A stretch of DNA of 35,154 nt from Flavobacteriaceae bacterium (GTDB lineage Bacteria; Bacteroidota; Bacteroidia; Flavobacteriales; Flavobacteriaceae): the NCBI GenBank assembly GCA_029861705.1, contig JAOTYW010000003.1, forward strand, positions 1-35,154, in the 5' to 3' direction. This document shows positions 24,964-28,813 of this stretch, piece after piece. The first letter of the stretch is position 1, and each line of letters opens with the position of its first letter. The notes under the pieces were generated by a model. It made no database searches, was not told the origin of the DNA, and saw only the letters and a list, made by a program, of their open reading frames with translations. The translations under genes and the position numbers were made by a program.

Positions 24964-24965
24964 AA

Positions 24966-25000
24966 AACACCCCGACATCTGTCGAGGTGTTCGTTTTAAT
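24966..25000. terminator. Terminator between the plsC-like gene and the convergent barrel gene
   Basis: AACACC (24966-24971) pairs with GGTGTT (24986-24991). After one C-A mismatch the stem continues with CGAC/GTCG. TTTTAATTT follows on the plus strand and A-rich sequence precedes the stem, so it can act in both directions. Confidence 0.75.
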
Positions 25001-25049: not shown

Positions 25050-26492
25050 CTAGAATTTATACTGGATCCCGCTGTAGATCCCAATAGTATAGGGATTAAA
25101 TTTTCCTGCTGTATTGGAAAAAGTATTTAGCTGATATTTTAATAGGGGTTCTAACTGGATCTTGAACTTATTTGAAATATCATAGTCTATACCCAAGCCA
25201 AAATTTGCACTGAAGTTCAATGAGTTAATGTTGTTAGCTGTCCCCATTTCGGTAGTTCCATTTTCTGATTCCAGGTTTACGACATTGTCCAGTAGCATTA
25301 AGGAACTTACTCCGCTCACTACATTTATGCCTAATTTCTTGTCTACCAAGACATAGTTTATTTCCATTGGGATCTCTAAATACCCCATTTCCTGGACCAT
25401 TGTTCCGGAGCGTGCCGGATTTTTCGCGGCAATTTCATCAGATCTTGTAGCATTTGCCTTTGTATTCGATAAAGAACGGGATTCAACCACCAGATATTCT
25501 GAAGTAGGCGCAAAATCTATATTACGTATTGAAGAATTTGCCGACGAAGATAAAGAAGAAGTGAATACAATGTCATTTGTGTTATAGGTGTAATCTACTT
25601 TATGAAGCCCAGAACGTAATTGCCATTTATCAGAGAGTTTGTAAGTTACTTTTACCCCATAACTCATGTTAATATTCCCCTTTTTATCATTGTTTATAAA
25701 AGCATTGTCAATAGGAGAACCTGTTCCATTGGCGGCATATAAAACCGGTGCGACGCTAGGTCCGACAGACCATTTTTCTTCTAAATCATTTTGCTGAGGT
25801 TTTTCTTCATCGTCAATCTCTTCAAACAGATCTCTAAACTCCTTTGTAGTTTCCTCTTCTTGTACTTCAGCAACAGCAGGAAGGGATTTGGTTTCAGTGA
25901 GATCTTGTTTTACTACAGGGTCATTCAGATCATCCGTTGTAAAAGGAGAATCTGCCACAGGATCTTCCGAAACCGTTTCAATACCCGAAACTATCTGTGC
26001 AACAGCTGGATCGTTATTCGGTATTGGATTATACGCTTCCGTCTTATTACCCGCAGCAGGAATTACATTGTCAGTTGTATTTGCTGAGCTAGTCGTAGCA
26101 ATTTGACCGGAAAGTGTTGTGGGAGAATTTGGCACATCCTTATCCGGACTTGCTGCGCTATTCGCATCAGTTATTGCTGCCTTATTCTCTCTTATAAATT
26201 TCGGATCTACTGGTTCGTCCGTTGAGGTGTTTAAGTCAGAAGGGGTTGATGTCGTCTGTTCATTTACCGGAATTGATAATTCTGAATCGGTACCGGGCAG
26301 TGCGAGGAACAATATCAATGCCAGGGCAGCTGCAACTCCGCCCAATTGCCACCAAAGCGGGATGGCTCTTCGTTTTCGTTTTATTTGCCTATCCAGTGAA
26401 GCCTGTATATTATCCCAAACTTTGGGATCCGGGGCCTGGGCAAAATCGTCCAGTGTATCCCGGAACAGGTTATCTACATTTTCTTTTTCCAT
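25050..26492 (-). CDS. Fused anti-sigma-like membrane segment and C-terminal outer-membrane beta-barrel
   Basis: A 480-residue protein with an unusual layout. Residues 1-44 are charged and cytoplasmic-like (VDNLFRDTLDDFAQAPDPKVW...), resembling short anti-sigma factor N-termini. One membrane helix lies at 45-65 (PLWWQLGGVAAALALILFLAL). Residues 66-240 form a long low-complexity linker rich in Ser, Thr, Asn, Asp and Pro. From about 242 to the end, alternating strands such as GVKVTYKLSDKWQLRSGLHKV and a terminal YKF resemble an outer-membrane beta-barrel of the OMP_b-brl type. It begins 9 bp after the ECF sigma factor gene on the same strand. A role in holding the sigma factor is inferred from order and topology, not proven. 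Confidence 0.7.
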   Translation of the reverse strand: MEKENVDNLFRDTLDDFAQAPDPKVWDNIQASLDRQIKRKRRAIPLWWQLGGVAAALALILFLALPGTDSELSIPVNEQTTSTPSDLNTSTDEPVDPKFIRENKAAITDANSAASPDKDVPNSPTTLSGQIATTSSANTTDNVIPAAGNKTEAYNPIPNNDPAVAQIVSGIETVSEDPVADSPFTTDDLNDPVVKQDLTETKSLPAVAEVQEEETTKEFRDLFEEIDDEEKPQQNDLEEKWSVGPSVAPVLYAANGTGSPIDNAFINNDKKGNINMSYGVKVTYKLSDKWQLRSGLHKVDYTYNTNDIVFTSSLSSSANSSIRNIDFAPTSEYLVVESRSLSNTKANATRSDEIAAKNPARSGTMVQEMGYLEIPMEINYVLVDKKLGINVVSGVSSLMLLDNVVNLESENGTTEMGTANNINSLNFSANFGLGIDYDISNKFKIQLEPLLKYQLNTFSNTAGKFNPYTIGIYSGIQYKF

Positions 26493-26501
26493 TGTGTTAG
26501 G

Positions 26502-27032
26502 TTATGCAATATTGATTTTTCGATTTTTGATCTTTTCACGTAAAATCACCCTGGCTCTTGCCAGATTGGATTTAGACGTTCCAGTAGATGTGCCTAATTG
26601 TTCGCTGATTTCTTTATGGCTATATCCATCAAGGACATAGAGATTAAAAGTTAATCGGTACTTATTAGGTAATTCCTGGATATATTGTAGTAAAGTGGAC
26701 AGGCTTATTTCAAGGGGCTGATATGCATCATCGTGCATGTCCTTATACTGATCGGGTAGTCGCGCCAAATATTCTTCCTTCCGGTACTTTTGTAAGATCG
26801 TATTTACGGTAATTCGTTTCAACCAGCCTTCAAAAGACCCAAGGGATTTAAACTGTCCAATTTTGTCATATATAGTCATAAAGCTGTCATGAAGATTATC
26901 TTCTGCTTCTGTCTTGTTTCTGGAGTATTTTAAGCAAATCCCATACAATTTATGGGCGTATTTGCGGTACAAATACTCCTGCGCAGATCGATCTCTTTCG
27001 ACACATTTCTTTATGAGCTCTTCAAGAATCAA
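26502..27032 (-). CDS. ECF-type RNA polymerase sigma factor
   Basis: A 176-residue sigma-70 family protein of the extracytoplasmic function class. Region 2 spans about 20-90 (YLYRKYAHKLYGICLKYSRNKTEAEDNLHDSFMTIY...FEGWLKRITVN). Region 4 (about 115-170) has a helix-turn-helix in YSHKEISEQLGTSTGTSKSNLARA. Region 3 is missing, as in all ECF factors. The start is uncertain: the track uses TTG at 27032, while an ATT a few codons upstream would give a slightly longer N-terminus. The next gene, 9 bp on, encodes the anti-sigma-like barrel fusion. A lipoprotein gene lies 38 bp upstream on the same strand. Confidence 0.92.
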   Translation of the reverse strand: MILEELIKKCVERDRSAQEYLYRKYAHKLYGICLKYSRNKTEAEDNLHDSFMTIYDKIGQFKSLGSFEGWLKRITVNTILQKYRKEEYLARLPDQYKDMHDDAYQPLEISLSTLLQYIQELPNKYRLTFNLYVLDGYSHKEISEQLGTSTGTSKSNLARARVILREKIKNRKINIA

Positions 27033-27070
27033 ATTGTTGGTCAGATTAATGGACGCAACTCGTCATTGTC

Positions 27071-27490
27071 TTAATTAACCGGAATATAATAATCCAGGTA
27101 AATAGGATTTCCTTGTGCATCTTCACCTCCCCAGAATTTTAAAGTATACGGTTCATGATTCAGCACAAGAAATTCAAAACTTGCTTGACCGTAATATACG
27201 GCTTGTGTACAAATTTCCCCATTGAATTCGGCCCCGATACAGGTTATATAACGAATGGACTCCCCATCAGTATTTATATCAAAGCCTTCATAGGTAATAC
27301 ATGAATTGGGACGCTCATAAGTAACATTAATGGTGTATACTTCTCCGTGCGCAAAGAATTCCGGAACTTCTACCGAAGTGATCTTTAGTGGCACAAAAAA
27401 GAAATTGGGTTCCGCAGAATCAATATCACACCCATTGAGTAATAACATCCCCAATATGATCCAAACAAAAACGATCTTCTTCATCATCAA
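27071..27490 (-). CDS. Small lipoprotein of unknown function upstream of the sigma factor
   Basis: A 139-residue protein with signal peptide MMMKKIVFVWIILGMLLLNGC, lipobox Cys about 21. The mature domain is about 118 residues, beta-rich and Ig-like in pattern (ITSVEVPEFFAHGEVYTINVTYERP). It has three internal Cys that could form a disulfide. No family is recognised. Three ATG codons in a row begin the gene; any could be used. It precedes the ECF sigma factor by 38 bp on the same strand, so the three genes may form one envelope-linked operon. Confidence 0.65.
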   Translation of the reverse strand: MMMKKIVFVWIILGMLLLNGCDIDSAEPNFFFVPLKITSVEVPEFFAHGEVYTINVTYERPNSCITYEGFDINTDGESIRYITCIGAEFNGEICTQAVYYGQASFEFLVLNHEPYTLKFWGGEDAQGNPIYLDYYIPVN

Positions 27491-27582
27491 TTCCTGTATT
27501 AAAATAAGATGTTGAGGTTGAATAAAGGTTGCTTTACCTTATAACAGCTAAAAAAGGATGTACCCTAAAAGAAAATGGAGAT

Positions 27583-28578: not shown

Positions 28579-28698
28579 ATCATACTTCTTAGAAGGGCTA
28601 AAATAGTACTTCTTTCTGCATATAGCAATCATGAAAGCAACCTTTTTGAACTGGATGTATCTATGGTATAACAGATAGATTATCTCGACATATTTCTT

Positions 28699-28720
28699 CC
28701 AAAATCCTAAGTGATTTTGG
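28699..28720. promoter_or_regulatory. 22-bp inverted repeat at the recA promoter (CCAAAATC-N6-GATTTTGG)
   Basis: Perfect 8-bp arms with a 6-bp spacer. CACCTTTGC (minus, 28729-28721), one base off a -7 element, abuts the repeat, so a repressor bound here would cover the recA transcript start. It resembles neither the E. coli nor the B. subtilis LexA box. If transcribed, it is also a leader hairpin. Confidence 0.5.
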
Positions 28721-28785
28721 GCAAAGGTGATCATCTCTTTACGAAGTACTCTATGAAAAAGAAAGCACCTGAGGGGTGATCCTTT

Positions 28786-28813
28786 AAGAGCCTTGATTCC
28801 AAGGCTCTTTTTG
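28786..28813 (+). terminator. Strong intrinsic terminator with no obvious gene upstream
   Basis: AAGAGCCTTG (28786-28795), loop ATTC, CAAGGCTCTT (28800-28809), then a T-run to 28812. The orientation is plus-strand. Nothing but a tiny ORF (28753-28779, MKKKAPEG) and unassigned sequence precedes it on that strand, which suggests a small RNA or leader transcript. Confidence 0.75.

Follow-up and report, generated by a model that had tools for sequence, protein, structure and literature searches.

The Dma (dual membrane-spanning anti-sigma) proteins of Bacteroides consist of a head, a helix, a tether and a barrel, and are encoded beside an ECF21 sigma factor (PMC13088901). Deletion of dma2 activates das2-dependent effects in Bacteroides (PMC13088901), and two accounts describe activation of the sigma regulon upon loss of Dma or a Dma homologue, together with a genetic demonstration in Bacteroides that proteins of this family inhibit sigma (PMC13088901, PMC9308784). 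In Bacteroides thetaiotaomicron, loss of Dma1 is described as raising the NigD-like protein NigD1, which is needed for hypervesiculation (Pardue 2024, via PMC13088901); another study terms NigD a putative lipoprotein and describes a homologous Phocaeicola pair as induced by an envelope-damaging toxin (PMC9308784).

Envelope regulation of a related kind includes the sigmaE-RseA system of E. coli, with an envelope sigma factor, a membrane anti-sigma factor and sigmaE-dependent small RNAs, and the FecI-FecR-FecA system, in which the state of the outer membrane is likewise linked to an ECF sigma factor. FecA and FecR are a separate receptor and anti-sigma factor, whereas in the protein described below the barrel is fused to the anti-sigma-like segment. 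This fused architecture is not new, having been described for the Dma family in 2024-2026; the present locus, from a marine bacterium, holds a flavobacterial member. It lies in a stretch of 35,154 nucleotides from a Flavobacteriaceae bacterium (GCA_029861705.1, contig JAOTYW010000003.1), hereafter the window, whose assembly is incomplete (311 contigs, 89.8% complete). The nearest named relative is a metagenome-assembled genome labelled uncultured Eudoraea, at 67% identity, which makes a flavobacterium akin to it the probable source of the window.

Operon layout and domain architecture

The operon and the parts of its last product are as follows.

27507..27532 (-): promoter-like motif GCAACC-N15-CATCT (GCAACCTTTATTCAACCTCAACATCT), 22 nt before the lipoprotein ATG
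27071..27484 (-): small lipoprotein, first operon gene; ATG at 27484, stop at 27071, lipobox LLNGC
26502..27032 (-): ECF sigma factor, Das-like, TTG start; Sigma70_r2 and Sigma70_r4_2
25050..26492 (-): predicted Dma-like anti-sigma factor, 480 aa, from domain layout, profile homology and synteny
26361..26492 (-): residues 1-44, cytoplasmic head predicted to bind sigma; D7..P21....W26..I29...L33 motif followed by KRKRR
26295..26354 (-): residues about 47-66, putative inner-membrane helix preceded by basic residues, from alignment A1 and hydropathy
25773..26294 (-): residues 67-240, predicted low-complexity periplasmic tether of 174 residues, rich in T, D, E, P and S
25053..25772 (-): residues 241-480, predicted outer-membrane beta-barrel domain (PF13568), ending ..YSGIQYKF
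24965..24992 (-): site downstream of dma that resembles an intrinsic terminator, with a stem of 12 pairs and a T tail

The original prediction of a three-gene operon comprising a lipoprotein, an ECF sigma factor and a fused protein is confirmed by the reading frames and gene order, with all three genes open on the minus strand (27484-25050). The genes lie within the proposed interval of 25050-27490, but the operon itself is slightly longer, since it is bounded by the promoter motif and the terminator-like site. Upstream of it, on the same strand, is recA, and genes resembling plsC and trpS are found downstream.

The sigma factor matches the Pfam domains Sigma70_r2 (2.4e-13) and Sigma70_r4_2 (1.5e-15), and the NCBIfam equivalog matches shown for it are all below their cut-offs. 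Each of the 31 loci compared uses TTG or GTG as the sigma start codon, and none has ATG at that position (27032 in the window), a constancy that suggests conserved weak translation of the sigma gene.

The division of the 480-aa protein into an anti-sigma-like head, one helix, a low-complexity linker and a barrel, paired with an ECF sigma factor, is supported by Pfam, alignment A1 and the relatives. The head is charged, and its D7..P21....W26..I29...L33 columns are invariant in alignment A1 (31 rows). A KRKRR cluster and the residues Pro-Leu-Trp-Trp stand before the single helix, for which the basic residues predict an N-in orientation by the positive-inside rule; the helix is aligned in 31 relatives, and hydropathy puts it at the same position in distant relatives. 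The barrel family PF13568 (OMP_b-brl_2) is matched at residues 269-446 with an E-value of 4.8e-6, just over the Pfam cut-off, and in 25 of the 31 relatives, at best with 4.4e-10. The barrel ends in a C-terminal Phe, a residue common to many outer-membrane proteins. AlphaFold models were unusable, with pLDDT values of 27.9 for the full protein and 26.5 for the barrel alone, both below 30 because the alignment held three sequences, namely the window protein and two relatives; the barrel call thus rests on the profile evidence.

Conservation follows the domain boundaries. Among 28 relatives with overall identities of 31-42%, identity to the window protein is 47% for the head and helix and 48% for the barrel, and averages 14% for the linker, the length of which is nevertheless 147-249 aa in every one of them. 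This is the pattern expected if the length rather than the sequence of the linker matters. In Pfam searches of the 31 members, no match was found to the FecR, RseA_N or zf-HC2 domains. PDB sequence searches returned nothing meaningful, with no solved structure passing the cut-off for the barrel protein, and none of the curated anti-sigma models passes its own cut-off for it.

Comparison with the Dma family

The closest described counterpart is Dma2/Das2 of B. thetaiotaomicron (BT_1558/BT_1559; PMC13088901), which shares an ECF sigma factor, in that case Das2 of class ECF21 (PMC13088901), beside a protein with a head, a helix, a disordered tether and a C-terminal barrel. Orthologues of the dma2 operon were recovered in two genomes through DUF4943, and their order of sigma, dma, DUF4943, DUF4858 and a nitronate-monooxygenase-like gene, with the last two names assigned by position and by eye, equals the published dma2 order (PMC13088901). 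Like the window locus, the recovered operons hold a lipoprotein gene (DUF4943) and have a 15-base promoter spacing, and the window sigma factor is 33% identical to the sigma factor of a recovered operon. In profile comparisons, the barrel matched the two orthologues with an E-value of 6.9e-5 and the head (residues 1-66) with 9e-6; against a wider set of distant sigma-adjacent Dma proteins, the values were 8.6e-31 for the barrel and 8.8e-19 for the head and helix. Because of these matches, the 480-aa protein is filed as a Dma member on its sequence features, and its inhibition of sigma and its topology are predicted by that membership.

Several features set the window locus apart from Dma2/Das2. 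Its operon begins with an unrelated lipoprotein and sits between recA and plsC, the protein is longer (480 aa versus about 350 aa) and has a longer tether (174 aa), and its motif is GCAACC/CATCT, whereas the form before the dma2-type sigma genes is GCAGCA-N15-CGTCT. The Dma1/Das1-NigD1 system, as far as it is described, follows a comparable logic of a sigma factor driving envelope proteins, but the window operon has no NigD match and its regulon is predicted. The pair M0N98_03760-61 of Phocaeicola vulgatus likewise has a sigma gene followed by a large anti-sigma factor with an outer-membrane barrel; this likeness is by description, and a lipoprotein gene does not figure in the available description of that pair (PMC9308784). 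The likeness to sigmaE-RseA, including a predicted sigma-dependent small RNA, lies in the way of working, with no claim of homology; the predicted anti-sigma factor of the window lacks an RseA domain.

The locus probably encodes a flavobacterial Dma/Das system in which the head holds sigma, the barrel is fixed in the outer membrane, and release switches on the operon, other lipoproteins and an RNA beside recA. In this model, the head (about residues 1-44) would bind the ECF sigma factor and keep it at the inner membrane, while the helix, disordered tether and barrel would anchor the protein in the outer membrane. The barrel or its insertion would serve as a readout of outer-membrane or surface state, and sigma would be freed when the barrel is disturbed or when Dma is cut or misassembled. 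Freed sigma would transcribe its own operon from GCAACC-N15-CATCT, an autoregulatory loop, as well as genes for outer-membrane lipoproteins and the small RNA beside recA. The architecture, conservation, homology, synteny, and motif enrichment and placement used in the model were computed; sigma inhibition, the dual-membrane topology and release upon envelope stress would carry over from the published work in Bacteroides. With a recA-linked Dma copy in most sampled Flavobacteriaceae and a recognizable motif, the regulon of culturable species can be read from their sequences, and the prediction that emerges is of a Das/Dma system that manages surface lipoproteins and a small RNA.

Promoter-like motif, predicted regulon and proposed recA-divergent transcript

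The promoter-like motif before the Dma operon is new here. GCAACC-N15-CATCT occurs at one spacing in 21 of 22 aligned regions upstream of the lipoprotein start; L015 lacks it, and L019 has TATCT. A promoter survey of Flavobacterium psychrophilum connects T9SS genes with a sigma-ECF motif whose -10 box is CGT, and GCAACC/CATCT is not among the motifs in the available part of that survey (PMC9723704); a literature search for a published account of the GCAACC motif found nothing relevant.

Across 61 genomes of the family, a scan with one more base (CGCAACC-N15-CATCT) gave 176 matches, compared with five for the reversed pattern used as a control. The motif is present in 47 of 51 Dma-positive genomes and in none of 10 Dma-negative genomes (Fisher p 1.1e-8, uncorrected for phylogeny), most of the latter being small and one measuring 4.8 Mb. 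Elsewhere in the class, beyond this family, the pattern shows no enrichment, repeats in one genome apart.

The Das-like sigma factor of the operon probably reads this motif, judging from motif location and co-occurrence. Since the assignment comes from those two lines, another sigma factor or regulator might read it, with the Das/Dma operon merely one of its targets; this is unlikely given that not one of the 10 sampled Dma-negative genomes has the motif, the 4.8-Mb genome included, and that the sigma genes of the dma2-type operon and of the locus L057 have related forms, equally spaced at 15 bases, in front of them.

The genes downstream point to lipoproteins as a predicted output of Das-like sigma. 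Among 60 motif sites, with the operon and recA sites left out, 42 have an ATG reading frame of at least 90 aa within 60 nt downstream, at a median distance of 22.5 nt. A lipobox is found in 37 of these 42 genes and in 21 of 155 background genes under the same permissive rule (p=9e-20), and two of the five lipobox-negative genes look like lipoproteins by eye. A recurrent target is an LVIVD-repeat lipoprotein that is 42% and 32% identical to lipoproteins inside the sigma-dma operons of other families, where its gene lies directly 3' of sigma-dma (L038:3882-5186, L039:3708-5009, L044:3655-4926), and this resemblance gives the regulon independent support. The window genome holds three exact GCAACC-N15-CATCT matches (at the operon, in a coding region and at a contig start). 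One-mismatch matches there are near background (32 versus 22 for the control), so such sites were noted solely before lipoprotein starts; imperfect sites 67 and 16 nt before two lipoprotein genes, L178:1080-1433 and L197:1543-1905, make these candidate regulon members. Separately, motif matches with a conserved GATTGG preceding CATCT were seen before an rfbD-like gene in L070, L081 and L134, and could belong to the coding region of the gene ahead of them instead of marking promoters.

The lipoprotein encoded first in the operon has its lipobox cysteine at Cys19 and invariant cysteines at Cys62 and Cys92, and acidic residues follow the lipidated Cys in most relatives, resembling the surface-export signal of Bacteroidetes lipoproteins (PMC5080379). 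Searches of Pfam and of PDB sequences gave no match, and no family is assigned. It had been proposed as the input of the system, and a sensor in contact with the barrel, on the periplasmic or surface side, that governs sigma release, like RcsF or as a co-sensor, would fit its three invariant cysteines, its place as first operon gene in 24 of the 26 loci that show this stretch, and the presence of lipoproteins in distant sigma-dma operons as well. Such a role is nonetheless improbable: in relatives the same upstream motif mostly precedes other, unrelated lipoprotein genes, there is no such lipoprotein gene at the syntenic loci L023 and L027, and the operon lipoproteins of other families (LVIVD, DUF4943) are unrelated proteins. 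The lipoprotein is more likely an output of the sigma system than an input, since it is motif-preceded like the other lipoproteins and missing at these two loci.

A second site with the motif lies on the other side of recA.

28637..28662 (+): promoter-like site with one mismatch to the motif (GCAACCTTTTTGAACTGGATGTATCT), facing away from recA
28669..28811 (+): putative structured small RNA (fold z -3.0) that this site would drive; intrinsic terminator at 28786-28809
L091-L098, L101-L103, L107, L109 and L110: conserved 30-codon frame beside recA in relatives, with the same promoter motif upstream

About 20 relatives have exact-match counterparts of this site in the equivalent position, and the spacer is conserved to an unusual degree. 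The RNA is predicted to form three hairpins in which 11 of 29 pairs are changed on both sides among seven window-type sequences. These hairpins exceed all 500 shuffles (cells paired, covariation score) and all slid controls, in a test that leans in their favour, as the structure was drawn from the same alignment. No Rfam match reached its gathering score. In 14 other genera, the recA-divergent transcript instead holds a frame of exactly 30 codons, mostly ending in CKADGG, with the typical sequence M(K/R)FF(K/R)..I...ALGVSV...N.NCKADGG, third codon positions the most variable, and a stem and terminator after it. A tentative extension, plausible though short of an even prospect, is that Das/Dma in Flavobacteriaceae governs outer-membrane lipoproteins as a general response, using a promoter code of its own, and has a small-RNA arm in which a single conserved recA-divergent promoter yields either a structured small RNA, as in the window, or a short mRNA encoding the conserved 30-residue peptide; this would be a counterpart of sigmaE and its small RNAs.

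Fused, split and tandem forms in relatives

A Dma match was found in 104 of 121 Flavobacteriaceae genomes; most genomes without one are small, but not all, one being of 4.8 Mb. The order recA-lipoprotein-sigma-dma recurs across Flavobacteriaceae loci, so that the gene order proposed from the window is kept in relatives, and an ECF sigma gene adjoins dma in all 31 loci. The fused layout is not a product of chance, because so many genomes hold the protein with its head and barrel about half identical and its linker bounded in length. Its generic barrel family and the want of a structure or curated anti-sigma model over cut-off could imply that the protein serves chiefly as a porin or structural component of the outer membrane, its N-terminus tethered to a membrane, with sigma as a fixed partner but no anti-sigma role. 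This is very improbable, given that conservation of the cytoplasmic head matches that of the barrel (47% versus 48%), that the head is kept beside sigma in distant families, including a barrel-less split form (L057), and that the Bacteroides genetics show repression (PMC13088901).

The split form (L057:1824-3962) consists of a sigma gene, a barrel-less anti-sigma factor of 244 aa and a separate PF13568 outer-membrane protein of 269 aa, with GCAACC-N15-CGTCT upstream of the sigma gene, and may be an unfused counterpart. In one genome of the family, two sigma-dma pairs stand in tandem, preceded by a lipoprotein gene (L056:1711-5315).
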